A stretch of DNA of 64,000 nucleotides from Serendipita indica DSM 11827 (Eukaryota > Basidiomycota > Agaricomycetes > Sebacinales > Serendipitaceae), in assembly GCA_910890315.1 (NCBI GenBank), contig CAJVGD010000014.1, positions 62,001-126,000 on the forward strand. Reading direction: 5' to 3'. Made by a program: the position numbers and the translations under genes. This document shows positions 30,085-51,686 of the stretch, one piece after another (position 1 is the stretch's first letter; each line of letters opens with the position of its first letter). The notes below the pieces were generated by a model, which did no database searches, was not told where the DNA came from, and saw only the letters and a program-made list of their open reading frames with translations.

Positions 30085-31304
30085 ATGGAGAGAAACACGT
30101 CCAACTTGAATGAGCTCTTGATTCGAGTCAGAGAGTTCTTAGATACCTCACCAGGTACACCCAATTCGGATCGATTAATTACCATTAATGCTAAAACTAC
30201 TCTCGTTTTGCAGTGGCGGCGCGCCCTCAATGTGAGGGAGACATGCAGAAGAGAGAAACGGAAGAGACGTATGATAACGAGGAATATTCACCGCCATCTT
30301 CCATCAGCTCGAGTCCATGGGCTTCTCCGCGCCAAAACCTTCTCGAGCTGCCAGGTGACCTACAGGCTATTTGTCCTCCTTTACCCTCGGCCTCGCCTAT
30401 AACAGTTCAGAATTCTTTCAAGGATAGTGGTCATGAATTAGCAACGCATAAAGGTACACAATTTCCTCGGTGCTATTTCTTTCCCTCTAATGCCTCTTTA
30501 CAGATGAACACAGGTCTACGTCACGGCCATTACAGGACGCTCTCCTTCTTGGGGTTTCTGTGCTGTATGGAATGGAGGATCCTGGATGCGCCGACGACGC
30601 CGATGAGACAGAGGACGAGGACGAGGATGAAGATGGTGCCTATGGAGATGCAGAAGATTCGCCTACTTCGTCCGACTCATCGAGCCCATCTACGTCACCA
30701 GTTAAGCCCAGATTCGCATTTCCTTTCCACGAGTATGTGGAAATGAAAGGAGCAGCCTCGCACCAGACACGCCGCACGCTAGATGACGTCGAATTGGAAA
30801 CAAAAGCTGGGGTGTTTAGACATCCATTCGTCACACGAGCCATCCTTGGGACGGGTTTCAACCAGCCGCGACTTAATCCTAGATATCGCAAAGGGAGAGA
30901 TAGGGGTACATCAACGTCTGCCATGAGCGCCCCACCACAGACCATGCAAGAGAAACAACCGCGCAAATGGAACAGTGCGCCGAATTTAAAACCTGGAGTT
31001 TTGCGGGTTTCGACAAGGAGCGCGAAAATTCTATCCCAAATTGTCGCACTTGAGGAGAAAGCAAAGTCAAAAGAGGATGGACCTACCACAGCGACACACT
31101 GTCAAGGATCCTCGACGAGCAATAAAGGCGCATCAGAAGATTCGGATCCGAGTTCATCCTCTTCAGAAGTGAGTGGCTCGACCACGGCAGGGGGGGACCC
31201 TCTCGACCGTGTCGACGTCCTCTGGAATTAAAGTGGTGTATAAATTGCGGAATAATACAGCCAGTGGAAGATGTCAAGTCGTCGATGAGATGCCAATACT
31301 ATAA
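30085..31304 (+). CDS. Motif-family protein (EEYSPPSS type), copy 1
   Basis: Exons 30085-30154, 30214-30453, 30504-31304. It starts with a short helix (MERNTSNLNELLIRVREFLD), then a phase-1 intron, then the acidic linker and NEEYSPPSSISSSPWASPRQ motif shared by five loci here. The middle is disordered with an acidic block (DETEDEDEDEDG) and SPSTSP. The family's C-terminal box (GIKVVYKLR) is present but lies one frame over, after a run of seven G at about 31187-31193. Read as written, the frame stops at 31231 (345 residues). With one fewer G it runs to 31304. No kinase or PB1 domain. Function unknown. Confidence 0.6.
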
Positions 31305-32039
31305 AAAAGATACCCAGGTCGGCATGTATCTCCTGTAGTTCCAATTAGATCCTAGTTCTTCACCGTATCTTTAGTTGACTCCACTATAAAATCACAGAGA
31401 GTCGACGGGATATTCCAGTCGTAAATTTCAGGTATGAGTGTGATGCGCAGATCGCCACGCAAGTGAGAGTGGCGGGTCCTGGCGGAGTTGTGGCGGATCC
31501 TATTCACATTTACCTCATTCAGTTGCTTTAAACCTCGTCTGAGCGTTTGCTCATCGTCTAGGTCGCTACTAGGAGGGAGTGTCAACGATTCGGCCACTAC
31601 ACTTCGCTAAGCCTCGTCGGCTGCTGCGAAAGAAATGGCGCTGAGCAAATAATAGGAGCTTTAATTGAGTTTGTAGAGGTTCCATCCTCGAAAACCTAGC
31701 TCGATAGCGTGGTGATACAATTGTATACGCTGAGGCGCTTAAGCCTGCCCAAAAAGCATAGGCACAAATTGAGGGGCCAAAGAAGATATATTTAGCACCG
31801 AGCGAAGTAGTTGCTCCTCGTGTGACCGCTTGTCCAGTGCTCGCGCATGTGGCTCTCTGTTTGTCGGGCCTTTTAATTGATAGGAAGGATCCGAATTTGT
31901 AGAAAACTCCGCTTGGGGTCGGTGGTTGACCTATCCGCTCGAGCACTCGACGCTTAGTATCATTTGGAGATGACAAGGCAGCTATATCGCATAAATCGAT
32001 ATATATATATATTGGAGAGCAGTAACGTACATTTCATAC
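31305..32039. other. Intergenic region with an unresolved minus-strand ORF
   Basis: 735 nt. A perfect donor (GTAAGT) overlaps the stop codon of the PB1 gene at 32040, and minus-strand frames run on through 31976-31569 and 31597-31352, so extra 3' exons of that gene are possible. The 31597-31352 frame (PPSSDLDDEQTLRRGLKQL) looks protein-like, but I could not join it cleanly. An (AT)n run lies at about 32001-32015. Confidence 0.35.
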
Positions 32040-33098
32040 TTACGCAACTAGCGTGATCCTAGTAATGTCACTGGTCTGCCTTGCTGCAATATCGAACGCC
32101 AACCAGAGATCCTCATCTGTTAAGATTGAAATTTGGTCACCCTCATCATCAAGATATCGTAGCTTGATCTGTTGGTCAACATCCTTGTAACCACACATTC
32201 GTATTTTTTTCCGAACACGCTGAAGGAGCCGCTCTAGGTTGATGCTAGCTGGAACCGCAATCACGAAGCGATCCTCCAGCCAGCAAATTTTGACCATGAC
32301 GATGCGATCATGTTTCAAAGATCGCGGTCGAGCCTTGTAAACTTCCTTTGAGCCGCTAGCTGTCGTAATAATGGACGCAGTTGCCTTGATAGTACTAGCA
32401 CTCGAGCGAGTGAGGATTGAAAATGCGTCGCTGGCTCTTCTTGGATCAGGAATCCGGAGATCCCCTGGGTGTAGGTCTTCGAATGTAGTTGTGGGGGAGG
32501 GGTGAGAGGCTGCAGTACGATCTACGCATCATTCTGGAGATTAGATTCCTACCATGATCCTGGATATGAGTGCTAGTGCGTACCTTCCCATGGCGCGAGG
32601 TCTGGCAGCAAACTTTCCGCGGAAGAGCGTTCTCTCGAGTCATCAACCGGCTTGGAGGTGCCGAATGCCCTCTCACTTCTGCCAGATGAGCTCTGGGGTG
32701 GATGAGAACCAGTCGCGAGCTCGGAGTTGAAAGGAAAAGATCGCGAGCCATCGACCTCCGGATCAATTGATTCGTCGTGTATGTCATCCGGAAGTTCTTC
32801 TTTGACCTGTCTCGGCGAGGAGCAGGGGCTGGATGCGATGGACGATGGAGGCGAGTATTCCTCATCGTCCTCTTCTTCTTCTTCCTGCCCTTCTCGCAGA
32901 GTTCCGAGGGTATGCCAATCTTCGCGCTCTGAAGACGCAAGATGGCGAGAAACTCCTACAGATGGCGCTACCGAAGATTTCAGAGTCAAACCACAGTAAA
33001 AGGTGTTTGAACTAGCCTTCCAGCCCCTTTATAATGGACTCGACGCGATCTAATAGCGCCTGTGGTATTCTTTCATCTGCTGTCGTTGCCGTTGACAT
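32040..33098 (-). CDS. Motif-family protein (EEYSPPSS type) with C-terminal PB1 domain, copy 2
   Basis: Exons 33098-33017, 32967-32584, 32521-32040 give 315 residues. The head helix (LLDRVESIIKGLE) precedes a phase-1 intron with a GC donor (AAG|GCTAGT). The second exon has the acidic linker and EEYSPPSSIASSPCSSPRQ. The C-terminal part carries the family box (ASGSKEVYKARP) and then a PB1 domain: KICWLEDRFVIAVP, basic helix RLLQRVRKKIRMCG, and the acidic OPCA motif YLDDEGDQISILTDEDLW. Having both a basic and an acidic face, it could form PB1 chains or dimers (known PB1 behaviour), as in Bem1/Cdc24-type polarity proteins. The partner is unknown. Minus strand, downstream of the two kinase-like paralogues. 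Confidence 0.7.
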
Positions 33099-33429
33099 TG
33101 CATGCCGATGAGGGGCTTAATTGATACAATGAAGGGTCCCTTGATATTGAAACAATGGAATCCCTTGAATAATACGAAGATTCCACGACTGTGCCTCGTC
33201 CACGAAGGTACCTCGAACGATGGAAGGGTTCAAATTCCGCGACCAGAGACCTGAGGCCTCATATCTACTATTGGATGTAACTATCTGTAATTTACATATC
33301 CCATACAAGTAAATGAAACAAGATCTGTACAATTATTGCGTCCAATTCTCGTCGCTTACGCGACTTCACTAAGTTTCATGTGGTATCTGCTTTGAGGCTC
33401 GAGCGGGGGATGAGCCTTGTTCCCTGGAA
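33099..33429. other. Intergenic region
   Basis: 331 nt between the start of the PB1 gene and the 3' end of the first kinase-like gene, both minus strand. Presumed promoter and 3' UTR. Nothing else seen. Confidence 0.35.
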
Positions 33430-36116
33430 TCATTCCGATGCTCGCAATTTGTAGACGTCCCGTGGGCCAGTCGGAGTGGTAACGGTAACGGACACGCCTT
33501 TAGCCGTACTGGAAGTCGAGGTGGTTTGTAATGAAATCACCGAGATATCATCCCTCTCACGAATCTTGTGCCGAATTATCTTTCTTGCTGTCCTAGGAGC
33601 CGTCCATGGCCTTGAGTCTACGGAAGGCCGAATCGTAGGTTGCCCTTCGTCGGCCTCCACAGTCGGTGTCACTAATTTCCGCCTTTCTTTTGGTCGTGGT
33701 ATGGTCAGATGTTTATGTGATGCGTCGATATCGAGAGAGAGGGCATGCAATGGACGCATGCGTATATTTCCTGGAACTGCATCTTCTGCAGCCAACACGG
33801 ATGATTCCGGGGAAGTAGCAGAGATGGCGTGCATACTTCCTTCAGTAGAACATTCTAGGCTTGTCATGCCTGATAATTCCGATCGAGTCTCATCTCCCGG
33901 TAAAAACGATTCGTGCATCAAGAATTCTGCAAAGCCGACCTGATCGGCCATTATAGGGTCTGTAGAGTTATATGGAGCCGATTCTTCGGGTAGTGGTGCA
34001 GGTAAGTTGCCAGGCGATGAACAAGGGCTTGAGGCGATGGAAGAAGGGGGAGAATATTCTTCGTTTCCGTTGGCTTCTAGATCTTCCTTTTCTTCGTCTG
34101 GAGACTCCAAATATGACGAGATTGCTTGTACTCCCCTCAGATGAGTCTCGCTGCGTTCTGTGCCTAGGACTATAGGCGCATCTGTCGAATATTGTCGGCT
34201 ATTGGGGAAAAAACAGCATAATTACTCACCCTCCACTTCCTTGATGATGGCTTGGAGTCGTTCGAGCTGTCCCTTGGTCAATTGTTGGGCAGACGAAGGC
34301 TTCGTAATGGATGGGACCATCAATACCGAGCTAGATCGACGCCCGAGGTGACTCCTGCGGAGGGCAGTGTCCCTAATCGGTTGCTTCAGCATGAACGAAG
34401 AAGTCAGATCCACAAAATCGGGTTCCTCTCCCAGCGGAGGCGAAGCGAGGCTCGATACAGATGAGGTATCAGCACCTGCTCGTATACCAGCAGCATACTC
34501 GGCAGCAGAAGAAAGTCTATCCGTCGGCTGGGATGTCCGCGACGTCCTGCGTGGGGTCGGTTCCTTCCGCTTTCTAGACTCTGCTCGTGGACGCTGCTGA
34601 TCTGAGTTGTCATTATCGAAGTCTGTGGCAACGTTATTTAATCGAGTTTTCGCCACTAAAGAGGTGTATGTATGAACAGAAGGACGGGTATGGGGCAGAA
34701 TAACGCTGTGGGTGGCCGGTTGCGAGACCGAGGGTATAAATCGGTTCACTTCTGGGGAAGACCGAGTGAGAGCTGTGTATACGATGGAATGAAGGCCATT
34801 CTCTGGATCCGACCTCCGTTGAAAAGCGGATGCGGCGGTGCGCCTCGCTGACGGTCCGAGGTGAAGTACCAGGTCACGGGCCCAGATGGTAAACTGTTCT
34901 ATGGTGATCCGACGTCCAATATTACCTGAGTATACCGCAGGATTCGAAGCATCGTCCTCTACATCGAGAGGCATAGGCGGCTTCAAGAGGCAGAAGACAT
35001 TACGCGCGAGGAACCCTGCCACAGGACGAGTGAGCCCATCAAACTGACCCATGAAGAAATTGATCGGTTCGCGCAGGAAGTATTCGAAAGAAGGACATTG
35101 TCCAATAGCTGTCGTTGTCCAGGGATTACTGTGGTAGAGTAGGTTGATGAGAACAACGCCTAGAGACCATACGTCTGCTGGACCAGTCGCATATGTCGAT
35201 GTGAGACTATTCTTACATTCTATCGGAAGTTTCAGCATTACCATTTGGCTGTTACGCAGATGCAGCACTTGCCGAAGCTCATGTACGGCGCGCTGCCACA
35301 GTCCCTATCACCCGAGTAAACATCTCGGGTAGCGAGACCGAATTCGATAAGTTTAACGGCAAATTTTCGCTCGTATTGACCACTGGATGTGCTGTAGACC
35401 CGCTCCTCTGTAATCATAAAGCTTTCTGGCTTGATGTCGCGATGAGAGACCTGATTTCGATGGCAATGAGCGACTGCGTCGCACATTTGGGTGAAAATCG
35501 ACGCGACAAGACGCAGTCGATCATAGGAGAGTGGCTGGAGGATGCCACCCATGCTGGACGTTGTGGTCTCATAACCCCGCTGCTGTTCGAGAAAGTGGAA
35601 AAGGGTTTCACCATGTACATAATCGAGGACAAGGAGGAGATGGGAGGAAATCTCGAACGTCGTCCACAGAGTAACCACGTTTGCATGGATTGGCAGCGAG
35701 TGAAGGATGGTGGATTCTTGATATTGAACCTCTTGGTCCTTTTCATCCTTGAGGAGACATTTGAGCGCAAAAAAGCGACCAAATGTAGCCGGAGAGAACG
35801 TGGGAGAGTCTTCAATCTCAAGAAAGTTGGACGAATAGGCAATAATCTCCTGAACGAGGTAGAAAACGGCGCAGGGACCCGTTTTGAGCTTTCTGAGTAC
35901 ACGAAGCGGACTCACATTGGCCACACGGGAATGAACGATGGCAATCGGTTGGCCGAGAATGGAGAGGCCAGGACCAATCACGTCACCGTCGCAGAGGATA
36001 TCTCCACCGAATCTTGAACCGACTAGCGGATGCGCCTGGTGAGACGCGGTGAGATGAGGCGAAGTCGAGGTGGCGAATGCATGGGCGAAACACCTGCAAG
36101 GGTCGTTTGAGCCCAT
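33430..36116 (-). CDS. Kinase-like protein fused to the EEYSPPSS tail, copy 3
   Basis: Exons 36116-35273, 35219-34230, 34181-33430; 861 residues. Residues about 40-370 are a protein-kinase fold of the fungal Ran1/Ksp1/Sks1 kind (PADVWSLGVVLINLLYHSNPW). The catalytic signature is partly eroded: the glycine loop reads KTGPCAVFY, the VAIK lysine is kept (FFALKCL, Lys119), HRD is kept (HRDIKPES) but the following Asn is Ser, and DFG is EFG (Glu258). The second half is disordered and ends with the family head helix (LERLQAIIKEVEG), a phase-1 intron, EEYSPPSSIASSPCSSPGN, then TSTSSTAKGVSVTVTTPTGP and DVYKLR. The first intron is GC-AG (GCAAGT) where the paralogue at 36536 has GT-AG. Probably a scaffold or weak kinase. 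Substrate unknown. Confidence 0.75.
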
Positions 36117-36535
36117 CAGAGATGTAGACGCTTTGGAAAAGGTCCTCAAATTTACGTAGCCATTAAGAACTTATAAAGAGACGGCGAACGGCCGACTGAG
36201 GGTACAAAAGCAAGGCAGAGCGAGTACGGTGAGCATGTACAGCGCTACGGCGCAGAAGGCCAGCATGAGTGGACACCTTAAATGGGTTCAAGCACGTGTA
36301 GACACATTTTGTTACGGGAGGCCGGGTGCAAGTATAAATGGGGATGCTTTCCCATCCCAAACTAGACAGGCATTGTTACCTCGGACACGTATGGGTTCAA
36401 ACTTTGCCAATTTTTACAGTTTATGTGATTATTGGATGTGGATGATGTAAACATCATTAGATGGAAACAATGTATACTTGTTATTAAACCATCCATGAAT
36501 AATTTACGCTCGCATTGTACAAAGATCCGAGCCAA
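36117..36535. other. Intergenic region
   Basis: 419 nt between two same-strand kinase-like paralogues: promoter of the one starting at 36116 and 3' flank of the one ending at 36536. No further feature seen. Confidence 0.35.
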
Positions 36536-39097
36536 TTACAGGATACCCGCCTTGGTCAAAGAAGAAGCCAAATCTTCTTTTCCTCTAGGCATTTTCGACG
36601 GTCTTAATTTATAAACCTGCTGCGGGCCAAGGGGAGTGACAATGGCAACAGCTACCCCTTTGGCCGTGCTCGATGTCGAAGTTGTTCGAAAGGAAACTAG
36701 CGAACAGTCGTCTCCACCACGTATCTTGGAAGAGACAGCTTCTTCTGGGATTTCGAGAAGCGCCTGTGATCCCGATTGCGTAGAATCAAGTCGCTTCACG
36801 CGACTGGCCAGATCAGATGCATTTGGGTTCCTCACTGCTCCTCCTCTCGGTGCTTGCGGTCTTGAATGCATGAGACCTTGAATCATCTGTGGCTCCTCGT
36901 GACTGGCTGGAGTAGATGCAGTTGGCTTCCTCGCTACTGCTACTCTCGGCTTATATGCTGGCTCCTGACGGTTAGAGAAGCCGAGAAACCGTGTATCTCC
37001 GTCTCTCAGCAGCTTGAAAGATAGCCATTTGGTTCGCGCCCGAGACTTGGTCGCTTGAGGTACACTTTCCGGCACAGGAGGTGATGCTTCAGGGTCTGTG
37101 ATAGAGTTAGGTTTCTAAATACCCGCGGTCAATGACCCTGACATACTAGGGCCGGCCAATGGTTGGGTCCTTGCATCTCGTGGCGGGATTTGTTTTTCGG
37201 TGGTGAGTCCGGTGAGTGTAGAGTAGTACCAAGCCATCTCTTCCGGCAACGGTATGGGCAAGTTCCTAGGAGATGAACACGGGCTCGAAGCGATGGAAGA
37301 AGGTGGCGAGTATTCCTCGCCACTGACATCTACGTCTTCGTTTCCTTCTTCCAGGGGCTCTAAACGCGATGAGGATACTTCTACTCGGGGGCGTATCTCC
37401 GTTTCTGTACGCAGGACAATAGGTGCATCTGTCGGCCATTATCAGATATCGGATGAATGCCAGGGAGAAATGCTTACTCTCTACTTCGTTGATGAAAACA
37501 GAAACCCGATTTAACAGGTCGGACAATTGGCGAGTAGAAAAAGGGCTCGTCGTGGATGGAGGGTCCGATGGTTGAAATGGCCGTGGCTTTCGTGCGCCAC
37601 GTTTCCCTCTGCGTCTAGGTTTTACTATTCTTAAGTCATCATATTCCTGACTCTCATCGTCTAGGATCACTCCAGCATCATTGACTTGATGTGCTGAAGC
37701 GAGAATGGAGGCGGGGGTATCGACGGGTGGTTGTGAGAGGGTGGGCATGGGCTGGTTCACCTCTGGAGGTGTATGAGAATGCCTCATGTGTGAGATGGAG
37801 TGAGAAATATCATCAGACTCCGAACTCGCTGCGGGTCCGAGGTGAAGCACGAGGTCGCGGGCCCAGACGCCAAACTCCTTTGCAGTGACCCGACGGCCAA
37901 TATTATTCGAGTATATCGCAGGATCAACGATTCCATTATCTGTGCTGGGAGGCATGGGCGACTCTAAAGGGCAGAAGACACGAGTAGCAAAGAATTCTGC
38001 CACGGCAGGAGTGAGGCCATTGAACTGGTCCACGAAAAAAGCGATTGGTTCGCGGAGGAACTCATCGAAAGCAGAGCATTTTCCAATAGCCGTCGTCCTC
38101 CAGGGATTGCCGTGGTAAAGCATATTGATGAGAACGATGCCCAGAGACCATACGTCGGCTGGGCCAGTGGCATAGGTTGGCGTAAGATTGTTACCGCATT
38201 CTGGGTGGGTAAAAGTGTCAAACGATGGTCATTAAGACGAGGGCGCGCGAAAACGGAGCACCTACCGAAGCTTATGTATGGCGGGCTGCCAATGTCCATT
38301 TCACCCGATTCAACGTCTCGCGTCGCACTACCAAAGTAACTGAGTTTGATAGTGACTCTGCGTTCGTCTTGGTGGGTGATCCAGTCATAGACTCGTTCGT
38401 CTGTGACCCTAAAGTTTTCGGGCCTGATGTCGCGATGGAAGACACCATTGTGATGACAATGTGCGACAGCGCGACACATTTGGGTGAACACGGACGCGAC
38501 AAGTCGCAGTCGATCATAGGAGAATGGTTGGAGGACGCCATCGACGCTGAGCGACGTCTCCTCGTAATCCCGCTGCTGCTCGAGGAAACAGAAAAAATCT
38601 TCACCAGGTACATAATCGAGGACAAGTAAGAGGTATGAAGGAGTCTCGAATGTTGTCCACAGGGTGACCACATTTTCATGAATTGGAAGGGAATGATGGA
38701 TGTTGGCTTCCTGGAGCTGCGCCGTTTGGTATTGAGCATGTCTTTTGATACACCGTAGGGCAAACAAACCGCCAATTGAGGCGGGTGAGGGTGTGACGGG
38801 GTTGTCAATGCCTAGAACGTCGGACGAGTGGGAGGAAATCTCCTGAACGAGGTATGTTACAGTGCAAGATCCTCTTCCAAGCTCCCTGAGAACACGAAGC
38901 GGCCTCACATGAACCGTGCGGGAGTGAACGATAGAAATTGGTTGGCCTAGAATAGAAAGGCCAGGTCCAATCTCGTCACCATCCCGAAGGAGGTCCCCCA
39001 CAGAACTTGGTTCTTCCAATGAGTTCGGCGGAGGAGATGGAGTGGGACGACTCGTGATTGTAGCCGCAGGTAGGGTGTTGTTGGTAGTGATTTGCAT
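36536..39097 (-). CDS. Pseudokinase fused to the EEYSPPSS tail, copy 4
   Basis: Exons 39097-38266, 38200-37478, 37428-37147, 37095-36536; 798 residues. Closely related to the neighbour at 33430: DGDEIGPGLSILGQPISIVHSR, LVQEIS, VVTLWTTFE, DVWSLGIVLINMLYHGNPW. More catalytic residues are lost here: the glycine loop is good (GRGSCTV) but the VAIK lysine is Arg (LFALRCI, Arg115), HRDxK is HRDIR, and DFG is YFG (Tyr254). That predicts a catalytically dead, possibly nucleotide-binding pseudokinase. The tail repeats the family pattern: head helix LLNRVSVFINEVE, phase-1 intron, GEEYSPPSSIASSPCSSPRN, TSTSSTAKGVAVAIVTP, QVYKLRP. It carries one extra intron in the tail compared with its sister. Confidence 0.75.
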
Positions 39098-39788
39098 TGG
39101 TGGAATGAAATATAAGACTGTGCTTAATTATCTATCGATAGAAAAGGGCGAAAATATGATGAATCAGAGGATCCAGAGGGAAGCGCCGAGTTATTATGGG
39201 CCGAGTGTGAGGTGCCAGCAGAGTTTAGAGCACTGAGACTGTTAAGAATTCTGGTCCAGCCGTTGCGGATCTATTTGATATTAGACTCTGAGAAACGGCG
39301 GACGGGGTTGGGAGCCAACTTTGCTTATTTCATCCCAACTTTTGATTCATTTCATTGATTCAAGCTTCCTAATTTATGAGTTATCGCTTGTTGAAGAACA
39401 TGGTATACCGAATATCCAAAATGTTACAGTAGATTACTATCCTGAGACAAACCATCACAGACGGATGTCTTCACTCCAGATCCCATTGGGCGGTCAGAGA
39501 TGAGCATTGCCAGCGACATGCCATGGTCCTCGCTATCCAACGGCGGTCGACTAGTTGCAATAGACGTTCTGGATCTTGAGTGGAATTGCGTCGAGGTGGG
39601 TGGCCCGACGGGTGCGAGTGTACAGGGACATTACATAACCCATATCAGAGAAGCAATTGACGCGCTCGTCGAATAAACTCGGTCTTGGCATCGTGGCCCA
39701 GAGTGTGGCACAAAGATAGGCAGGCGCCGACCACAACTTGGACCCATCCACTGCTGTAGTAAAGCCAAATTCATCCACAAATACAAGT
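39098..39788. promoter_or_regulatory. Divergent region between pseudokinase and right NLR
   Basis: 691 nt between start codons of the minus-strand pseudokinase (39097) and the plus-strand NLR (39789). From about 39500 onward it matches the upstream flank of the left NLR in inverted orientation, marking the inner edge of the duplication. No other gene supported. Confidence 0.5.
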
Positions 39789-42700
39789 ATGAATCATCAG
39801 GATGCATCACAGTCTGCCGGAACATCATCGCGCAAGAGAGCCCGACTGCATTATACAGCTGCTACCAGTCTCGATGTAATTGCGAATATAGCAGACGCAA
39901 CAGACATACTCTCTCCTCTCAAAGCAGCCTGTAGAACTACCAGATCCATCCTCGAAGTCATCCAGGTTCGTAGGCGAGACGCACTAAACTTGTCCTAACT
40001 GTCATAATAGGCCGATGATGATAACAAAGAGGAATACATCGGCCTCATAGAACGTCTGGAAGGGTACATGTCGGCCGTCGAGGACCAAATTGACTTGTTC
40101 GAACAATACCCGCCAGAGGATAGGGCCGTGGACGAAGCATTTAGTCGGCCACTCATTCGTTATGTAAGGTACGTCGAAACTTTGAGCTTGTCTCTCAAGT
40201 GCTAAATAATTCAGGGCCCTCGAGGAATTTCAAAATACTATCGAAAAATGCAAACGACGTGGTAATAGGCTCGGCGCGTTGACTGCGATAAAACTTGACG
40301 CAGAAGTCATCCGTAAATTTCATCGGGATATTGAGGACAAGCATAGGCAGTTTATGGTGCGAATTTCATCGGCCATGACCAAATTCAGTCTGATTACAGT
40401 CTCAGGGGCAAATAACCTCTTTTACCGCATTCCGCGTTCAAGCAATCGAGCGGAATATAACGGCTACCAGAGAAGAGGTACAGACCATCGAACAAAATGG
40501 TAAGCTGAAACTGTGTTCTGTACTATCGCTTAACATGTCAAGCTGCCATACTCCAGCTGCCAATGGTAGCGTTCGTCGCGTCCTCAGTTCACAACACCTG
40601 TTTGCAAGGAACGCGTCAAGCCGTCCTTCAAACAATTGCCGACTGGGCCGAGGATGGTATGTCAGGTAAACCAATATTCTGGCTATGCGACATAGCGGGC
40701 GCTGGAAAGTCCACGGTCGCAATGTCGGCAACGGCGTCCTGGAAAACCGAAGGAGTACTGGGCGGACAATTCTTCTTCTCAATGTCGAACACTGATGCGT
40801 CCACTACGGAGAAGTTTTGCTCGACCATGGCGAGGGAACTCGCTCATCATATTCCCGAGCTGGCTCGACATGTCGCACAAGCCATGAGTCAAAGTCCGGC
40901 TATCATGCGAAGTCCGTTTGGCGAACAGTTCCGCACACTCATCACAGAACCTCTCCAACATCGGCAAAGGCGTGTCATTTTGGTCATCGACGCCGTTGAC
41001 GAGTGCAAGTCTGGAGCACAGCGAAAGGAACTTCTGGAGACGCTCGCCACGGCCACTCGAGAGTGCTCCAACCTCAAGATATTTATCACCAGTCGACCAG
41101 ACCCGGTCATTGGTGCGGTTTTGCAGCCACTATCAATCAAGGCAAAGTTGGAGGACCGTTTGCACGACGCCAACCGATTGGATAATATCAACGACATCGC
41201 GATTTACGTACACCAGGCTCTGGATGGAGTTCTGACGATGGGAAAGAGGCAACGAATAATCGAAAAGGCGAACGGGTTGTTCATCTGGGCGAGCACCGCA
41301 TGCCGAATGCTCACCAGTGAAACTAACTTGAGTTCCCCCGAAGATATATACGATCGCTTGATCTCCATGGACGAGACCGGAGTGATAGACGATGTATACA
41401 ATCTCGTTTTCGAGCGCGTGGACCGTGCTTCCTACGGAGTCATGTGTGAAATGCTCGCATTGTTGCTAACAGCCTTCGAGCCACTCACTGTCGATGACCT
41501 CGATAATCTCCTAAAGCACGTCAACGTACCTGGGAATGCCAAAGCATTGGTGCAACGCCTAGGAAGTGTACTCACTAGAGACGCGACTACAAATCTGATC
41601 CAATTTCGTCATCCTACGGTCGTCGAGTACCTTCAACGCTGTTCCGTCGCACCCGAGATCGACAACTCTAAGCGAGTCCATCTCAATCTCGCGAATTCCC
41701 ATGGTCAATTGGCATCGTGGTGTTTCAAGCAATTCAAATCGCCGACGGAAGGTCTCAAATTTAACATATGTCAAATCGAGTCGTCGTTCTATCTCAATCG
41801 GCAGATACCGGATATACACGAAAGAATATCAAATCTCATTCCATGGAGACTACAGTATGCTAGCTCCCATTGGTTGTTCCATGTGGCAGGGACGAGCGAC
41901 GACTGGCGAGGTAGGCTCAAGAATGAACTCCAACACATCATTCAAGTTCCACACGTACTACACTGGATGGAGATATTGAGTCTTATTGAAGGAGTGCCAC
42001 GAGCGATTGCCGGCCTTCGAGCTGTGATGCGCCATACAGGAGTGAGTGCCTATCTCGATGGGCGGTGGATTCTGACAAAATGGACAGTTTGAAGAGGGGA
42101 CTAGAAGAATAATGGACGAGATACGGCGGTTTATAATGGCATTTTCTGTCCCGATCCAGGACAGTGCTCCACACATCTACATTTCCGCGCTCCCGTTCAC
42201 CCCTATCATAACGATGCTGCATCTTGAGGGGCTAGAGAAGTATGCGAATGCCTTGACGGTAATTCAGGGACTTGAAACTATGTATCCCGGTCTACCCAAA
42301 ACTCTTCGCGGCCCCACCGGAGGAGTCGACGCCGTCACCTTCTCCCACGATGGCTCCCGAATTGCCCCGGGTTCGTTTGACGGGACCGTTAGACTGTGGG
42401 ATGCAGATACTGGTCAACCGTTGGGAGAGCCAATATTCAGTGGAGAGGGTCTGATCTATGCCGTTGCGTTCTCGCCAGACGACTCACAAATCGCCTTGGG
42501 GGGGTCTGAGGCGGAGATTCAATTGTGGGATGCGGAGACCTTACAACAGCTGGGAGAGCCGTTCATCGGTCACGAAAAAGACGTTACTTGTGTCGCATTC
42601 TCCCCAGATGGTTCACGAATGGTCTCTGGTTCGTACGACATGACAATTCGACTGTGGGATGTAGAGACTGGCCTGCCGTCGGGTGAACCACTTTGGGGTC

Positions 42701-44443
42701 ACGAAGACTGTGTCAAGGCCGTCGTTTTCTCGCCAGATGGCTCACGAATCATCTCAGGCTCATCTGATAAGACGATCCGACTATGGGACGCAGAGAGTAG
42801 GCAGCCGTTTGGGGAGCCTCTCCGTGGTCACGAAAAAGGAGTTAACTCTGTGGCATTCTCACCAGATGGCTCACGGATTATTTCAGGCTCGGATGACGCC
42901 ACGATTAGACTGTGGGATGGAGACACTGGACAGCCGTTAGGAACGCCGCTCTGCGGTCACAAAGAATCTGTTTATTGCGTTTCATTTTCTCCAGACGGCT
43001 CACGAATCGCCTCGGGCTCGGCGGACAGGACGATTCGATTGTGGGATGTGGACAGGGGCAGCCCTTAGGAGAGTCGCTCCACAGTGGCAAATCCGCAGTT
43101 ATTGCCATTGTGTTCTCCCCAGACGGTTCAAAAATAGCCTCTGGCTCGGGAGAGGGAGTTCAACTGTGGGATGCGCGGACTGGCCAACCTTTAGGAGAAT
43201 CGCAGGGTCATACGAGTGGGATCGACTCTCTTGCGCTCTCTATAGATGGATCGCGCATCGTCTCTGGCTCGATGGATGGCACAATTGTCCTCTGGGATGT
43301 GACTACTGGGCAGTCGTTGGGAGAGCCCCTCCAAGGTCATGATGATTGGGTCGACTCCGTCGCGTTCTCGCGGGACGGCTCACGAATCGCCTCTGGCTCG
43401 TGGGATGCCACAGTTCGACTCTGGGACGTAGCTACTGGGCAGCCTTTAGGGGAGGCCCTCCGAGGTCATGATGGTTGGGTCAACTCCGTCGCGTTCTCAC
43501 CGGACGGCTCACGAGTCGTCTCTGGCTCGAATGATACCACAGTTCGACTCTGGGATGTAGCTACTGGGCAGCCTTTAGGAGAGCCCCTCCGAGGTCATAA
43601 TGAAGCGGTCAACTGCGTCGCGTTCTCACCGGACGGCTCACGAATCGCCTCTGGATCCTCCGATGAGACAATTCTACTGTGGGATGCGGAAACTAGGCAG
43701 CAACTGGGAGCGCCACTGCGTGGTCACACAGGTCCTATCTTTTCTCTCGCCTTCTCGGTAGATGGCTCACGAATCGTCTCTGGACATCGCGCTATGGACG
43801 GCACAATTCGACTCTGGGATGTAGGTACTGGGCAGATGTTGGGAGCGCCACTCCGAGGTCACAAAACTACGGTCGTCTCTGCCGCATTCTCACCAGACGG
43901 CTCACTTATTGTGTCAAGCTCGTCGGACCAATCAATTCGGCTATGGGATGCAGATTCTGGACAATCGCTAGGTGTGGTACTCCGAGATGATTATTACGGG
44001 GGTGGGCCTGTTGCATTTTCGCCAGACGGTTCATACATCGTCTGTTGCATTGATGACACGGTTCAAATATTGGCTGTAAGGGTCGGTAAGTGTAGCCTTG
44101 GCTTGCTGTTAATATGACGTGACCTAAAAAAACGTCTGCAGATGCTGGTCCAAGTGATTCCAGCTGCTATGATCGGGAGTCCACAAATTCTGATTCCGTA
44201 AGAGATTCAGAGGATACAATCCTTGTCCCAGGATTTGAACACTGTTCACTTTCATGGGATGGGTGGGTTCATTCTTCTGGTAGACGTCTCTTCTGGGTCC
44301 CACCGGATAACCGATATGGTCTCCTAAATCCGCGTCTTGTTCGGAGTATGCCGACATCAAGTCGATTCCGCGCAACCAAACTTGATTTCTCTCGTTTCCA
44401 GTGTGGCTCGTCTTGGACGAATGTTCGAACAGATGGCAACTAG
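39789..44443 (+). CDS. NACHT-WD40 NLR (STAND) protein, right copy
   Basis: Exons 39789-39965, 40011-40168, 40215-40356, 40400-40499, 40543-42041, 42121-44085, 44142-44443; about 1,447 residues if read through. Helical N-terminal domain (residues about 20-190; LDVIANIADATDILSPLKAA) of the MLKL/HeLo-like kind by appearance; NACHT with Walker A GAGKST at about 245-250 and Walker B VILVIDAVDEC near 340; 14 WD40 blades; then the tail GWVHSSGRRLFWVPPDNR ... FSRFQCGSSWTNVRTDGN. Blades 8-11 are nearly identical at the DNA level except at surface positions, as in HET-E-type recognition repeats. Inferred job: ligand-triggered oligomerisation and cell death or incompatibility. The frame is off by one base in blade 6 (about 43050) at a GGGG run. 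Adding the base makes all phases consistent, so I favour an assembly error. Confidence 0.75.
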
Positions 44444-45186
44444 TGTATTCTTATATTCTATTCGAATGGGCATATCCACATGCTCTCTTTCCCCGAACCG
44501 ACACCTGTTCTAGCCTTGATATTGGTCAAAAAGGGCCGGCGGAGGAAGCGAAGAGTGGACGTCTAGAAGTGATTGATGTAAGATTAGATGCTGATGTGAA
44601 ACAGAGAAGCTGATTTGTGTGAGATCTGATGGGCGGCGTGTTGCTCCCCATCTTGTCTTTCGACGCTGCGTGTGTCCGCTTGCTGTCTGGCATTTCGGGG
44701 CTCTAATTTAGGGCGTGGTGGATATCTTCCAGCCCTCCATCGTTGCCGTCGTCGTCCAGGAATCCGTTTTTTATCACGGGAATAATTACTGGACGAGGTG
44801 GCGATGAAGAACCGTCGGAGTTGTAAAGCTGGGAGAGTGTAGGCCAATGGAGGAATGGATCCTGGACCGATAGTCAAAGTGCCTGGTTATTTTATTACGT
44901 CATTTGCCCCTAGTCACCCGAATCCATGCGATTTCGAACTGCATCATTGCCTTTGCTGGCCTGAGCAAGGCACCTGAGCCGGGTTTATTATTCAGGCGTC
45001 TTCTATGCATGAGATCATAAAACTTTCCAGGATAGCCATTCCGTACAGCCGAGCAGCTCTAGTGTATCAACGGCGGAACCCAAGCGCTGACCAAGTAATC
45101 GGCGGCTCTGGGACTAGTATTTGTCGAAACCGACATTCTTTGCACAGCTACGCCCTGGATCCAGTCGGCGCTCCTTGACCCCGACC
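44444..45186. other. Intergenic region containing the duplication edge
   Basis: 743 nt. The first about 330 nt are duplicated sequence shared with 13080-13400. The remainder (44776-45186) is unique and leads into the F-box gene at 45187. Confidence 0.5.
44722..44771 (+). pseudogene. 5' stub of the Far1-like gene
   Basis: About 50 nt match the first codons of the Far1-like gene (13115 downward), including the CCCTCCATCG and GTCGTCGTCCAG stretches, together with about 280 nt of its upstream sequence. The start ATG reads ATA here and similarity ends after the tenth to twentieth codon, so it cannot encode the protein. It is a by-product of the NLR duplication. Confidence 0.75.
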
Positions 45187-46692
45187 ATGCCCGCTCGTTC
45201 CTCCGCCTCGCGCCCAAGTGTCGCAGCTAAAATTCCAAGCGAGGTTTGGACAGAGATATTCAGGGAGGCGACGAGATACAATGGGATTGATGAGCTAGAA
45301 CTCGACCCAGGGGAAATTCCCTTCGATGGACAATTACGGCCTCCTTTGCCTGATCCCGTGCTACAGCAAACGATACTCTCTACTCGTAGAAGCATCATTA
45401 GCGTCTGTAGAAGATGGTACGACGTTGGAATTCGCCATCTTTGGTCACATCTGGTGATTTGGCGCACGGCTTCCTTCGTCGACTCGCCGCTGGTCCCTAG
45501 TTCGATGATAGAGTCGTGCAAGCGAAAACCTAACCTTGCAAAGCACGTGAAGAAACTCAGCATTATGTACACCGAGGGATGGAGACCCCCGGCTGCTGTG
45601 GATATCGGTGCGAGCGAGGAACAGGGGATGGAATTTATCGCAACTCTACCGAATCTTGTATCTCTACGAGTCGATCAAAGGCTTCTATCCCGTATCAGCG
45701 ATCTCCAATCCCCTCCTAAACTCCGAAACACTTACTTTTATTCAAAGGAGAGCCCTCGTAATGAGGCTATTGTACTCAAAAGTCTCTCGCAATGGAGGCA
45801 AATTCATTCTCTCGACATCCAATGTCGTGATTCTCCGTTGGTAGTCGAGGAGGAGCAGAAACTTCCAAAGCTCCGAACGCTCCGCGTCCAAACTCTCAAC
45901 ACGTTTTCCGTCAGTCACATCGCTCTTGGTATGGAGTTGCCGGCACTACAGAACTTATCCATCCGGGGATGGTCCCGCGTCGTCCTCGGCGTACGGAAGC
46001 TTCCAAATTCCGCCTGCCAAACGCTGGAGTCACTGGAGCTCATCGATTCGTTTGAGGATAGATACTCAACTCGCTATTGGAGACCAAGGGACGTCACCGA
46101 ACTCTCTCGGCTTCATACTCTACAAGTCAGCTTACCCGCCCCTATTCCATTCTCGAGTCTCAAATGCCCTAATCTTCGCACTCTTGGTATTCACCAACCA
46201 GTACCACGAGTTCCTGATACGGTCAGCATGCAGCTTACAAAGGAGATCAACGCTGCCTTGGAGCACTTTCCCAAGTTGTGCGATATCCAGATCCACCACA
46301 ACCAGCTCAACGGAGAAGTGAATGTCTGGAACCTTTTATCTAGCAAAAATATTGATGAACGATACCTTGAAGGCTGGAAGGAGCGAGGCGCTTCTGTCAC
46401 CTTTATACCCCCTCTCCTCCCTGCCGGACATCCTCATGACAGGCTTATTCTCAATCTACAAAGCAAAGAAGAGTATCACGACGCGCATATCGTGTACGAG
46501 TTCACGGCAGACGCCTTCTCCTTCAGCCCGGACAACTGCTTTGCACGGTGTAAGGTCAACGATAGATCAAGCAAGTGGACGGAGAGCGTCAGGAATCGGG
46601 AAGAGGGTCTAAAGAAGGCTGCTCTAGCGATGATCGCTCTGCTCGAAACCGACGCGAAAACGCCTCCGCGACTCGAATCCTCAGCAGATTAG
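45187..46692 (+). CDS. F-box protein with C-terminal dsRBD-like domain
   Basis: Intronless, 501 residues, first ATG at 45187. F-box-like block AAKIPSEVWTEIFREAT, then SVCRRWYDVGIRHLWSHLVIW; LRR-like middle. The last about 90 residues mirror the small dsRBD-like proteins: an N-terminal helix (DRLILNLQSKEEY), strand HIVYEFTAD, the F-x-x-x-C core (NCFARCKV), and helix REEGLKKAALAMIALLE. Closely related in layout to the minus-strand gene at 50112 (shared HLWSHLVIW, PLLPxxHxxDRLI). Role inferred: SCF substrate adaptor. The tail could recruit RNA or protein. Confidence 0.75.
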   Translation: MPARSSASRPSVAAKIPSEVWTEIFREATRYNGIDELELDPGEIPFDGQLRPPLPDPVLQQTILSTRRSIISVCRRWYDVGIRHLWSHLVIWRTASFVDSPLVPSSMIESCKRKPNLAKHVKKLSIMYTEGWRPPAAVDIGASEEQGMEFIATLPNLVSLRVDQRLLSRISDLQSPPKLRNTYFYSKESPRNEAIVLKSLSQWRQIHSLDIQCRDSPLVVEEEQKLPKLRTLRVQTLNTFSVSHIALGMELPALQNLSIRGWSRVVLGVRKLPNSACQTLESLELIDSFEDRYSTRYWRPRDVTELSRLHTLQVSLPAPIPFSSLKCPNLRTLGIHQPVPRVPDTVSMQLTKEINAALEHFPKLCDIQIHHNQLNGEVNVWNLLSSKNIDERYLEGWKERGASVTFIPPLLPAGHPHDRLILNLQSKEEYHDAHIVYEFTADAFSFSPDNCFARCKVNDRSSKWTESVRNREEGLKKAALAMIALLETDAKTPPRLESSAD

Positions 46693-46838
46693 TTTATATG
46701 ATCGAATCTATATATAGGAGCACCTTGCCCTTATGAATACAGATATAGCCATATAGGCGCTTTAGATAGGCGCTGCGGCTACCTTAAACACCACCTCTGC
46801 CTTGGGCCTGAGTTCTCACGTTGGCAGATAACGTGCAA

Positions 46839-48731
46839 ATGAACCTGAATTTGCTTCCTGAAGCACTTGTCTTCGAAATCTGCAATTACCTGGACATTTT
46901 CACTCTTGTCGCCTTCTCTGATGTGAGTTTTCGTTTCACCTCGGCAGCTTATGGTGCCAGTGTTCTAACCCAAGTCTAAAACTTATCAAACCCGGGCTTT
47001 TACCGATCACACGACCCATCATTCAGGTTGACACATCACTAAGAAGTCTGGCGACAACGCGATCGTCCTTCTGGATATACACACTTAGTCATTGCAATCT
47101 GGTTCTACCTTGTATCGGTGACAAGCGACTTCATGAACACGATGCACGCGAACTTCATCTCGCAGCCCACCGAGCCGTGTTCATCGAGCGCAATCTTACC
47201 TCGGACAGCCCAGCGTTGCGCTCGTGGTCCAGAATCGAGTGGCCTTATCCTCTCGCCGACGGTGTGCATGAGACAGAGTACAGTAGTGAAGAAACCTGCA
47301 GCGAGGTGACGACGACATACCTCGTGGACGATATGGCGGATTGGATGATCTTTGTCTCGTCGAATAATATCCTCCGTATCGTCTTTGTGCGTACAGGCAG
47401 AGTGGGATTGATCTGGGATGGTGCGAGGTTCACCCCAGAGTACCGCGAACGTTACGACGTCGTGATCAAATGGGCCATACGTTATGCTTATATGGATAAC
47501 GTGAAGATTGTCGCGTCAATGGTTATGAACTGCTGTCTCGAGACCGAAAATGGGTGAGTCCTCTTCGATTAGCTGTGAGGGACATGCTTCTCATTATGTG
47601 ACAGTATCCGGGCGGGCATCCGCCGTATAGAGCTTGTAATGAACCTCCAAGATGGAACGGCATCCGTTGAAGTTCTTGGGGACTATGAAACCCCGACTAT
47701 ATCTTCATATCTCAATCTGATTGGAGACCTTGTCGTGATGGTCATCCCACGCTCAAGCTCCCTTACCGACAGGTTTGGAGATGTTTATATGCTGAAATGG
47801 TCGACTAGAACGCTCGTCACACTCCCACACGTACGTCTTCACCTTATAGTTTGCGATTGGATGCTGATTCATGTTTACTGTAGATGTATCCTTCTTTGCG
47901 AATCGGACTGTACAAAGAATATTTCATTAACGTTGGGTTGACTCCCACAAGGCAAATAGTGGCTCAAGTTGTGCCATTCTCGACGGATGATCTATCGCTG
48001 GCTGAGGCCAGCAATGCCACAATGCCATTCCCTGACTCCCCCCTACCAGTTTTAACTATCCTATTCCATACAACGGTCCAACCAAGTTCTCAACAAGCCG
48101 CTCCTGTCGCATTGGGCACATGTATACTGGTAGACAGATTGGAAGTGTGAGGCTCGGCATTCGCCCAAGCAGGAGGGGTAACTATAGCATTTTCGACTTT
48201 ACATTCGACTTTTACGGTCTACGCATGGCACTACAGAAGATGCGTCTGTACGGCACAGCAGTCAAGCAGGAGTTCGAAGGCGAGCCCGAGCTTTTTCGAA
48301 CTCTTGAAGAGTCGAATCTCCGTCACCGTCCCGTGCCCACATCGTCTGTACGGCGCTTAGTGTGGTGTAGACAGACGGCACCAGAGACCAATGCGTCTAC
48401 CGACACTTCGCCCATTCCCTCCAGCCCAGATCACAAGGGGAGACAAAGGTTCCGATTGTTGACCCTTCGGATTGACGACCTGGCGTCGGCGTCGCGGATT
48501 TTTCCAGAAGTCGGGACTTCTTTCAGAGCCCACCTCGATATCGAGGAAGAGCACCCCCCAGAGTCGGCCTGTGCTGTACAGATCAAGGCTTCAAAAGAGC
48601 TCCAGCTTCCCACAGAGTTGGCTGAGAGTACCACCGACGTATACGTCTTCCTTCTACTAGAAAGCTCTGGGACAGCGGTGGTCCAACTACGATCGGGAGA
48701 ATTGTGGGTACTACGGTATGGAAAGGCGTAG
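46839..48731 (+). CDS. F-box protein
   Basis: Exons 46839-46922, 47027-47553, 47605-47830, 47884-48731. The N-terminus is a canonical short F-box (LLPEALVFEICNYLDIFTLVAFSD, continuing DTSLRSLATTRSSFWIYTL). The rest is beta-rich with no repeats I can name, in the style of F-box proteins with an irregular propeller (inference). The frame changes once in the last exon, between about 48037 and 48120. A CCCCCC run at 48038-48043 is the simplest cause, though an unannotated 62-nt intron ending at TAGACAG (about 48135) is possible. It differs in family from the F-box-dsRBD genes on either side. Confidence 0.62.
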
Positions 48732-48936
48732 GTTCTTAGTCTACGTTGTGATCTGTCCACGAGCCCACCATCCGAGCAGCACGTGTATGCAGCGCTTGAC
48801 CTTGTCCACAACCTAGGACTTTTTGAGAGTGTTGCAAACCTGTGACATTTCAATAAATAAAGGTTCAGTGTGTCCCGTATAACTCCGGGAGAGGCTCCGC
48901 TGCGGATACCCGAGATTCCAGCTAAAAGGTCTCAAA

Positions 48937-50013
48937 ATGTCGAGCATAGTAGCACGTTCCGAAGACAAGACGCTGTCTCCGAGCCTAGAATCTCGAATAA
49001 ATGCCATTATCGATGCCTTGGATGGTAACCTGTACCTAATCTGTCCAGCGCGTACCTGACAGTCTCCAGACATGATCCTTCTGGCCGACCCAGCGCCATG
49101 CTCGCCTTTGCAAGAATCAACAAAGAACCTAGTTAAGCAGCCTTTGGCTGGAGTTGCAGTTGTTGAAAACTGTCCCAACGAGGAGTACTCCCCTCCGTCC
49201 TCGATAGCTTCGAGCCCATGCAACTCACCCGGTAACGTCGCTGCACCTTTACCAGAGGATGACGTATTAGTTAATGTACCTGGAAAACTTCCAAGCGTGG
49301 GAACCACAGAGATGCCAATCTCAGCAACTACGGAAGAGGAATACATACTGCTTCAGAGGGTCGACCTATCCCGTGAGAAGCACGTTGCTCCTATCCCAGC
49401 AAACCCTTATTCTGAACTGGACCGTACATTTCCTCGACAGCGTCAACATAATAATGGTCCGACGAGAAGCAACTCTCCCAACGGAATCATGAGGGCGGCT
49501 TTAGAGAGGTCAACATTTGCTCCCAAACGTCTACTATCTCCTCTCTCCAGAACGGTCGTGCTACCGTTGACTCAACCGCTCGTCGACGTTCCGAGCGAGC
49601 CACTTACGAAACACCCCAAAGTCAGTGATACCTCCTCGATACCTTCAAAACCTGCTTCCGAAGTATCAATAGGCTCTCATTCCAAAGAGAGTCAAGATGG
49701 TCGGTCGGGTATCAGCGACCCAAGTACCGTCAAAGGGGATATCGCTATCGTAGTCACTCCTTCCGGCATCCAACAGGTCTATAAAGAACGACCCAAAACC
49801 CCTCTCCCAATCAAACGACCGCTTCCTCCAACACCACTCGACTTGGCGGCCATCCGGGCAATCAAAACCTCTCATGGTGACGAACTACATCGACTATCCC
49901 CTTCTCCGGCTCGAATGCGCAAAAGAAGAATACTACCGCTGAGGAGGGGAGAGGATGGATACGAGACAGCCGACGAGTTCTGGAAACGGCGCTCTCGTAC
50001 AGCGCAGATTTAG
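48937..50013 (+). CDS. Motif-family protein (EEYSPPSS type), copy 5
   Basis: Exons 48937-49024 and 49070-50013; 343 residues. Head helix (LESRINAIIDALD), phase-1 intron at the same point as in the other four members, then NEEYSPPSSIASSPCNSPGN, a long disordered Ser/Pro stretch, STVKGDIAIVVTPSG, and QQVYKERP. Unlike the others it continues with a basic Pro-rich tail (PIKRPLPPTPL ... RKRRILPLRRG), which contains a possible SH3-type ligand (RPLPPTP) and a nuclear-localisation-like cluster. No kinase or PB1. It lies about 10 kb from the other four, between F-box genes. Function unknown. Confidence 0.72.
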
Positions 50014-50111: not shown

Positions 50112-51589
50112 TCATATCTTTGCTTGTATGGTAGCAATGAGGTTCTCCACGGCAATATTCCGAGCCACCGCTCTAGATGAATGGCATCCTATCCCGACCA
50201 ATTCACTGTTCTTCAGCTCACACTGTACGCGCCATTGCGGCGCATCCAGTGAGTTTTCCACTGACTCCTCCCCGAACATGATTATTTCCCACCGCCCGTC
50301 GTCTACCAATTCTTGGGCTGCCCGAATGAGCCTATTATCCAGATGCTCGGGTGGGAGTAGGGGTGGGTCGAATAGCACAGACACGCCCTTTGAGGCCCAC
50401 AGCTCGAGTTCGCGTTCGTTTGGCGCCGAATTATCGGATAAAAGCTTTCCTAGAACAGAGCAATCAGAGAGCTGTTCATAGTAAACTGTAATAACGGAGA
50501 TGGAAGGGAAAGAGTCGATGGCGCCGTTGATTGCTTCATACAAGATATTCCTAGATTGTGACATATTGAAACCTGATGGAGGAATGAAACCAATGTGCTG
50601 AAGGTTGGGACATCGAAAGCTGGCGAAGGCAGTTGCCGTCGGAATGCTCAGCCGCAACGTGTGAAGGAGTGGAAGATTCATGACTCCTTCAAGCGGTATT
50701 GGTATGACATGCTCCGGCAGTACTGAGACCTGGATGATCTCTAGTATGCGTAGTGCGTCGCAACGAGGGAGATCGACACCCCACGACTGAGGGAATCCTG
50801 GATAGGTACTATTCATCTGGATTGAGAGGTGTTGTAATCTCGGGAATATACAGTGACCAATCGATCGTAGTGCTTTCACCAGATAATCACAGTGAATCCG
50901 GAGACTGAGAAGCGAAGACAGGTCGACCCCGGCGAAGTGTTCAAGAAGGCTTCCACTGCAGCGCCGAATCTCTAAGTAAGTAACTCTTTGCCAGATCGAA
51001 ACGGGGAACACGGAATCGCTGAAAGACTCAAGGGAGGACAGATAGATGTGTTGAACAGTGGTGCTGGGACTTGCTTTGTCCAACCGGTTCAGTAACGAGA
51101 TATCGCAATGTATAGAACGAAGGTTCTCGAGTCGATGCAGAAACTCGAAGCTGTGGTCATCTCCTGACTGCGCAATGTCGCTGTCTCTGGGACTTCGTCG
51201 TCGTTCTGGATAGTTAAGGACGTGATGAAGGGTAGTAGTGATCTATTCCGTTGGCAGCTGTCGATTACCTTTGTAGGGATCAAGGGCTGTGAGTCGACGA
51301 CGTATCTTTTGCGCCAGATGACTAGGTGGGACCACAAAGCGCGAATTCCAATGCGGTACCATCTTTTGCAGACAAGGACGGTGCATTTGCGTGTATTGAT
51401 TACTTCTCGCAGGCAGAGCGTGTTCCATGGACCCGGACGTCTTGGTCCAGGAATCTGAGCGAGAGCCTCTGGGTTGATATCCATCTCGTGAAACCTCGGG
51501 TATGCTGTCGATAGTTTGAAAATTTCCAGCCATATCTCGTCTGGGAGAATGTCGACTTGACTTTGGTTTGCATTTGATATGCTTGACAT
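50112..51589 (-). CDS. F-box protein with C-terminal dsRBD-like domain, frame interrupted
   Basis: ATG at 51589. Frame 1 covers the F-box (DILPDEIWLEIFKLST, TVLVCKRWYRIGIRALWSHLVIWRK). After about 51185 the homologous protein continues in another frame (HSFEFLHRLENLRSIHCDIS) to the stop at 50112. The switch sits at a CCC run; one more C would join the frames into about 492 residues, so this is either a young pseudogene or an assembly error. The C-terminus is dsRBD-like: DNRLIRAAQELVDDG, a W-R-V-Q-C-E-L core, and SSRAVARNIAVENLIATIQ, the clearest Ser-Ser-Arg-x-Ala-x-x-Ala helix of the set. Sister of the gene at 45187. Confidence 0.68.
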
Positions 51590-51686
51590 GGTTTGGGTTC
51601 AATTTGTCGGGTATATTAATGGCGGCAAGTGTCTATGAAGGAAATAGATTGATTATATTTTATAATTTGCTACGTTGATATCACCT

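Follow-up and report, generated by a model that had tools for sequence, protein, structure and literature searches.

The consensus of the kinase GSK3 is given as SX3or4S(P) in the cited excerpt of PMC5954166. For the F-box protein FBXW7 (Fbw7), excerpts of PMC8955265 give a simple motif, [TS]PPx[TS]P, and an optimum, [^R][PLIVMFY][PLIVM]TPP[^RG][ST], of which multiple relaxations are described there as mostly deleterious. Among signalling domains, the type-1/2 PB1 is defined by a face with the Lys of strand beta-1 and a face with an acidic core (excerpts of PMC7051960). The PB1 of fungal CDC24 is reported or proposed there, and in excerpts of PMC2121648, as a partner of Bem1 and NoxR; the latter source also describes a Coprinopsis Cdc24 without PB1. 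The present study concerns a 64-kb stretch of Serendipita indica DSM 11827 (the window: positions 62001-126000 of contig C14, 947 kb, in a genome of 24.7 Mb and 55 contigs) and five of its genes, A to E, which share one short module made of a helix, an intron, a 17-residue motif and a terminal VYK-R box, the last being out of frame in D. The NACHT-WD40 and NoxR-like genes of this genome, a Zn2Cys6 domain and its short introns are in keeping with a fungus. I tentatively propose, with a probability of about 0.45, that this module, placed on varied signalling domains, carries a GSK3-type phosphorylation ladder for a common phospho-reader.

A short module shared by five genes

It was found in six-frame scans that the motif, EEYSPPSSIASSPCSSP, is present at all five loci for which the earlier note on this DNA had claimed it. 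It is identical in gene A (37268..37318, minus strand), gene B (34012..34062, minus) and gene C (32813..32863, minus), and has one change in gene E (49180..49230, plus) and three changes in gene D (30279..30329, plus). By the Nei-Gojobori method, the ten pairs of motifs have a proportion of synonymous differences (pS) of 0.85 and a proportion of nonsynonymous differences (pN) of 0.083, giving a pN/pS of 0.10. The VYK-R box is less conserved (pS 0.73, pN 0.335 and pN/pS 0.46 for six pairs), and a 45-codon kinase block compared between A and B has a pS of 0.56 and a pN of 0.14. Among the three, constraint is strongest on the motif. Its flanks have diverged among the window genes, in agreement with the view that the motif hardly changes while its surroundings are free to do so; a Leu-Pro pair is found at the seventh and eighth residues past the motif in all five. 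Since the synonymous sites are near saturation while the protein is almost fixed, gene conversion is disfavoured, and it is selection that, judged from the codons, maintains the motif.

The gene models were built by hand, with splice sites predicted from the sequence alone, and were scanned with Pfam at E ≤ 0.1. Gene A (36536..39097, minus) and gene B (33430..36116, minus) each encode a pseudokinase followed by the helix, the motif and the box. The predicted introns of A (38265-38201, 37477-37429 and 37146-37096) are all in phase 1, the third being 51 bases long with a GTATGT donor; those of B are at 35272-35220 (GC-AG) and 34229-34182, in phase 1. Gene C (32040..33098, minus; predicted phase-1 introns at 33016-32968, GC-AG, and 32583-32522) consists of the helix, an acidic linker, the motif, the box and a C-terminal PB1. 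Gene D (30085..31231, plus; predicted introns at 30155-30213 and 30454-30503) has the helix, the motif and an acidic middle, and gene E (48937..50013, plus; predicted phase-1 intron at 49025-49069) has the helix, the motif, the box and a basic Pro-rich tail. A kinase fold in two copies and a PB1 in one had been expected, and Pfam detects a protein kinase (PF00069) in A (E 3e-28) and B (E 5e-32) and a PB1 in C (E 5e-11). No Pfam domain was found in D, and the sole match in E is DUF2457 (E 0.0097), under the family cut-off. The Pfam scan found no DNA-binding domain in the window genes.

A predicted phase-1 intron lies at or just past the short helix in all five models, as had been anticipated; it follows the helix directly in all but D, where some four residues intervene. 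In C this intron requires predicted GC-AG sites, which are also used by one intron of B. An acidic linker had been ascribed to all five genes; the linker of E is not clearly acidic. On the whole, the common ancestry of the five modules is supported. They form a small family in which one short and probably disordered module is joined to different signalling domains.

The VYK-R box is in frame in A (36602..36670, minus), B (33442..33510, minus), C (32328..32396, minus) and E (49723..49791, plus). Gene D departs from the five complete members that had been counted: its ORF ends at 31231, and a VYKLR sequence (31236..31250, plus) begins beyond the stop in a different frame. A run of seven G residues (31190-31196) lies just upstream of the place where the box leaves the frame. 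This may be a sequencing error, a real frameshift at the G run, or an unrecognised intron. Because the box of D is out of frame, the complete members are four, not five. When the box of A was used as a query against the genome, four places were found at E ≤ 10, all within the window.

How far does the motif extend in the genome? The codon pattern of its core, EYSPPSSI, occurs with at most one mismatch at nine places in the 24.7 Mb, five of which are the window genes, and its reversed control pattern occurs at none in the same 24.7 Mb. The sixth place, on contig C20, has no codon mismatch, reads EYSPPSCI and meets a stop eleven codons on; the three one-mismatch places read EYSSPSSI, EY-stop-PPSRI and EYRPPSTL. 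The protein core itself was found in this genome-wide search in the five window genes only. The module of gene A, used as a protein query, recovered all five genes of the window, together with two other places, on contigs C2 and C13, at E above 0.2; in the frame translated, the motif was not seen at the C2 place. The doubled motif as a protein query had a single match genome-wide, gene C, so that short queries miss family members. Since the genome-wide searches score best candidates only and this query recovered a single place, the absence of the motif elsewhere in the genome is unproven. Three literal motif strings do not occur in 5.39 million open-access papers searched as full text, a result that tells little about protein databases. 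A single literature search for fungal GSK3/Cdc4 degrons turned up nothing relevant.

A diverged motif in three further genes

The family had been described with five members, and it extends beyond them. Three tandem genes on contig C13, at C13:383757, C13:385672 and C13:387979, bear DEYSPPDSLSSSQCSSP, NEYSPPNTVGSSQCSSP and DDFSPPNSVGSSQHSTP, respectively. With this diverged motif present in three genes, the family has at least eight members, five in the window and three on C13. When joined across a predicted intron, C13:387979 has a Zn2Cys6 domain (PF00172, E 2e-9), while no Pfam match was found in C13:383757 and C13:385672 at E ≤ 0.05. A query with C13:383757 finds both of its siblings, and the only further match at E ≤ 10 is gene C, with an E of 0.02. 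A query with C13:387979 finds both siblings and a weak place on contig C22 (E 0.82).

Reciprocal profile searches, with E-values scaled to the ORF count of the whole genome, linked the two sets. A profile of the C13 genes placed the five window genes at the top of 1898 window ORFs (E 0.0009 to 0.33, the next being 340), and a profile of the window genes placed the three C13 genes at the top of 2960 ORFs from 99 kb of other DNA (E 0.06 to 1.7, the next being 33). After shuffling of the columns, the highest score among 100 C13 profiles was 20.0 bits, against 24.2 for the best real one, and among 100 window profiles it was 13.7, against 18.6. The C13 genes also have a helix-like stretch (e.g. PLSDRHRAILNSF), which comes after the motif, where the window genes have their helix before it; as a sign of kinship this stretch is weak evidence.

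A proposed phosphorylation ladder and its rivals

With the Ser of SPP numbered as position 0, all eight motifs (five in the window and three on C13) have Ser/Thr at positions 0, 4, 7, 8 and 12, position 7 being always Ser, and Pro at positions 1, 2 and 13. Positions 3, 5, 6, 9, 10 and 11 are variable, position 5 being aliphatic in all eight motifs, which also have Tyr/Phe at position -1. The GSK3-primed pattern S/T-x3-S/T is, as a matter of sequence, present in each of the eight; an alternative register of 3/7/11 is broken in five of them. When the same 17 letters were shuffled, the pattern [ST]P..[ST]...[ST]...[ST]P appeared in 89 of 20000 shuffles, and a Pro-ended four-rung ladder lacking the initial Ser-Pro in 358 of 20000. 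Gene D has another ladder-like stretch, SPTSSDSSSPSTSP, at residues 156-169, and no ladder pattern occurs in the 889 residues examined of a related intact kinase on contig C40, which is described below. The core SPPx[ST] is kept in 8/8 motifs, and the front of the motif fits the simple Fbw7 motif of the cited excerpts except for the final Pro.

In the proposed model, a proline-directed kinase, a mitogen-activated protein kinase (MAPK) or a cyclin-dependent kinase (CDK), would prime the motif at Ser/Thr12-Pro, and GSK3 would then phosphorylate Ser8, Ser/Thr4 and Ser0 in this order. The finished Ser0-Pro-Pro-x-Ser/Thr4 would be read by a common phospho-reader, most likely a Skp1-cullin-F-box (SCF) ligase of the Cdc4/Fbw7 kind, and all carriers of the motif would be switched or destroyed together. 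Genes A and B, relatives of the intact C40 kinase, would serve as scaffolds without catalytic activity, and gene C as an adaptor with a CDC24-type PB1 to which NoxR, Bem1 or similar partners could bind. Because the ladder layout is kept and the front matches the simple Fbw7 motif while the upstream optimum is not matched, phosphorylation by a priming kinase and GSK3 seems likely, and a reader of the Cdc4/Fbw7 kind is possible.

Several points weigh against this proposal. The ladder was spotted post hoc; position 7, which is not a rung, is invariant too. Five of the seven Ser-type positions are kept, and the chance that these five include all four of the ladder is not small, about 1 in 7 by counting. 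The flanks miss the Fbw7 optimum, as the excerpts give it, by three relaxations (Glu/Asp at P-2, Tyr/Phe at P-1 and Ser at P0), and the motifs fall short of a Cdc4/Fbw7 phosphodegron defined by hydrophobic P-2 and P-1. The helix and the VYK-R box have no partner in the model. In addition, individual pairwise comparisons tie the window to C13 weakly (E 0.55 with the module of gene A as a query, besides the E of 0.02 given above). The query with C13:387979 finds no window gene at E ≤ 10, the whole proteins of genes E and C, as queries, recover none of the C13 genes at E ≤ 1, and the weaker members score 16.0-16.5 and 13.9-14.6 bits in the two profile searches, inside or just above the top shuffled range.

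Might the motif instead be a docking peptide that binds one folded partner regardless of phosphorylation, with an incidental Ser-Pro pattern? A single common partner had been suggested from the beginning, and a near-invariant 17-mer that sits on several architectures under strong purifying selection is what such a peptide would look like; the Tyr/Phe at -1, the aliphatic residue at 5 and the downstream Leu-Pro of the five window genes would suit it as well. However, the variation at positions 3, 6, 9, 10 and 11 spares every fourth Ser/Thr and the Pro at 1, 2 and 13. One folded partner is possible, but the kept and free positions favour phosphorylation every fourth residue, and I regard a docking peptide of this kind as doubtful.

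Somewhat less probable still is a multi-site MAPK/CDK switch which would be read by a WW/Pin1-type isomerase, a 14-3-3 protein or Cks, without GSK3 or degradation. Each of the five window motifs has three Ser-Pro sites, and Ser/Thr-Pro at 0 and 12 is kept in all eight motifs, both of which speak for such a switch. The middle Ser-Pro is Ser-Gln in three of the eight, yet the Ser/Thr at 4, which has no Pro after it, is kept in every one, so that proline-directed phosphorylation alone is insufficient. It is very improbable that these are ordinary recent tandem duplicates whose motifs are alike through gene conversion or youth: the five genes lie within 20 kb and A-B is the closest pair by synonymous divergence (dS), but the synonymous sites of the motif are near saturation (pS 0.85) with the protein hardly altered, and the flanks have diverged.

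Signalling domains, neighbouring genes and known systems

Genes A and B had been called pseudokinases, and both have lost key catalytic residues. In gene A, Arg replaces both the VAIK Lys and the catalytic-loop Lys, and Tyr replaces the DFG Asp; in gene B, the first loop Gly has become Lys, the catalytic-loop Asn Ser and the DFG Asp Glu. Both genes retain the HRD Asp. Neither gene has the full set expected of an active Ser/Thr protein kinase (VAIK Lys, HRD Asp, loop Asn and DFG Asp), and by the kinase-family match together with the lost motifs they can be classed as pseudokinases. The kinase closest to gene A in the genome (70% and 80% identity by exon) is the C40 kinase, C40:1832284, in which VAIK Lys, HRD Asp, catalytic-loop Asn and DFG Asp are all intact; it has the first phase-1 intron in common with the window kinases. 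Its kinase domain matches MARK3 and other kinases among Protein Data Bank sequences (best E 7.5e-15), and it may resemble the Ran1/Pat1-type fungal kinases. The pairwise dS values, which are high, are 0.94 for A-B, 1.51 for A-C40 and 1.34 for B-C40. By protein identity (A-C40 71%, A-B 61%, B-C40 68%) a closer kinship of A with the C40 kinase was considered, and it was set aside, as dS puts A and B closest. The ratio of nonsynonymous to synonymous divergence is about 0.28 for A-B, about 0.13 for A-C40 and about 0.15 for B-C40; all are well below 1, and A and B are under constraint, though probably not as catalysts.

Did the module arise from the tail of the C40 kinase? In the 478 residues of the tail scanned, neither the motif nor the box was supported; short patterns and inspection by eye did not find them in the rest of the tail. 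A derivation from this tail was rejected, since in its first 478 residues the motif score was matched by 1048 of 2000 shuffles and that of the full box by 1524 of 2000. The helix was matched as well by 163 of 2000 shuffles (62 of 2000 with one row corrected), and a 16-residue Ser/Thr-rich part of the box by 12 of 2000. These likenesses are treated as post hoc and compositional, although a distant kinship of the tail and the module is conceivable.

The PB1 of gene C (32049..32300, minus) scores 42.8 bits with PF00564 against a cut-off of 23.6. Genome-wide, the Pfam PB1 model finds seven places, five above the cut-off including gene C. The closest of all is in a gene on contig C44, with 39% identity over 88 residues (E 6e-18). 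This C44 gene is CDC24-like: its PB1 was detected by Pfam, and RhoGEF-like sequence was seen by eye upstream of it. Both faces are retained in gene C, which has the beta-1 Lys and an acidic D-x-E-x-D core. NoxR and Bem1 would be the expected partners, because the fungal CDC24 PB1 has been reported or proposed to pair with them. In the 315-residue model of gene C, PB1 is the only domain detected by Pfam and the RhoGEF DH/PH part of a CDC24 was not found. From its domain content, gene C is an adaptor, as had been supposed, and not a CDC24. Its last exon alone gave a structure prediction with a mean pLDDT (predicted local distance difference test) of 38.5.

Two other PB1 loci were seen on C40. 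About 19 kb from the C40 kinase, C40:1851561 has a TPR-like start and a PB1 end, and presumably resembles NoxR. At C40:1874026, a 638-residue open frame holds a further diverged PB1-like stretch (E 0.0036 with the PB1 query, outside the Pfam PB1 matches); neither SPPx[ST] nor VYK-R was found in its 3.4-kb locus.

Genes of the NACHT-WD40 receptor kind lie at 40509-44117 and 13398-18143 of the window. The former and gene A are arranged head to head, with about 0.7 kb between the first stretch of the receptor gene and the start of A; a NACHT-WD40 gene faces the C40 kinase in a like arrangement and at a similar distance. Of 316 candidates in the genome, at least 93 were scored as copies of the receptor family, so this pairing may be a coincidence. 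A segmental duplication of the pair was considered and judged weak, given at least 93 copies, with the receptor on the C40 side not among the 93 listed. Gene E is flanked on opposite strands by two F-box-like genes (45118-46692 and 50112-51598) with leucine-rich-repeat-like parts, both of which score under the Pfam F-box-like cut-off. Further along, a tRNA lies at 51687-51768 (Rfam, 48.8 bits), which was missed by ARAGORN, perhaps owing to an intron. A gene with FG (Phe-Gly) repeats is at 57801-61301, and I take it to resemble a NUP98/NUP145-type nucleoporin.

A more speculative scheme, which I consider improbable, is that the genes form a decoy kit. Copied signalling parts (a kinase domain, a CDC24 PB1 and possibly a transcription factor), with the kinases disabled, would share one phospho-controlled tag and, acting together, would rival or monitor the genuine components. 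In this scheme the guard would be the neighbouring NACHT-WD40 receptor, and the F-box-like genes nearby would supply the ligase.

If the phosphorylation ladder is true, a single genome has put one phospho-motif to repeated use as a movable tag, on pseudokinases, on a PB1 adaptor and on a transcription-factor-like gene, and a single input could jointly control the levels or the assembly of its carriers. The motif is a defined peptide with predicted phosphorylation sites, which is testable in laboratory yeast, and a related pseudokinase pair with an intact paralogue is available for comparison.

Each component has a counterpart among known systems. The motif resembles GSK3 ladders and SCF phosphodegrons in its Ser/Thr at every fourth residue up to a Ser/Thr-Pro and in its SPPx[ST] front, whereas its P-2, P-1 and P0 are off the human Fbw7 optimum as excerpted, and its kinases and reader are those the model proposes. 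Like pseudokinase scaffolds, A and B match PF00069, are under purifying selection, have lost VAIK Lys or catalytic-loop Asn and have both lost DFG Asp; unlike them, they bear a C-terminal module that is common to non-kinase genes. The PB1 of gene C is 39% identical to a CDC24-like PB1 with the Lys and the acidic core kept, but the gene is without a Pfam-detected RhoGEF (DH/PH) part. In C13:387979, the diverged motif is accompanied, across a predicted intron, by the Zn2Cys6 domain of fungal transcription factors, unlike the window genes, which have no DNA-binding domain detected by Pfam. The components are thus each of a known kind, and what is new, as far as it could be tested here, is a tag common to several architectures.

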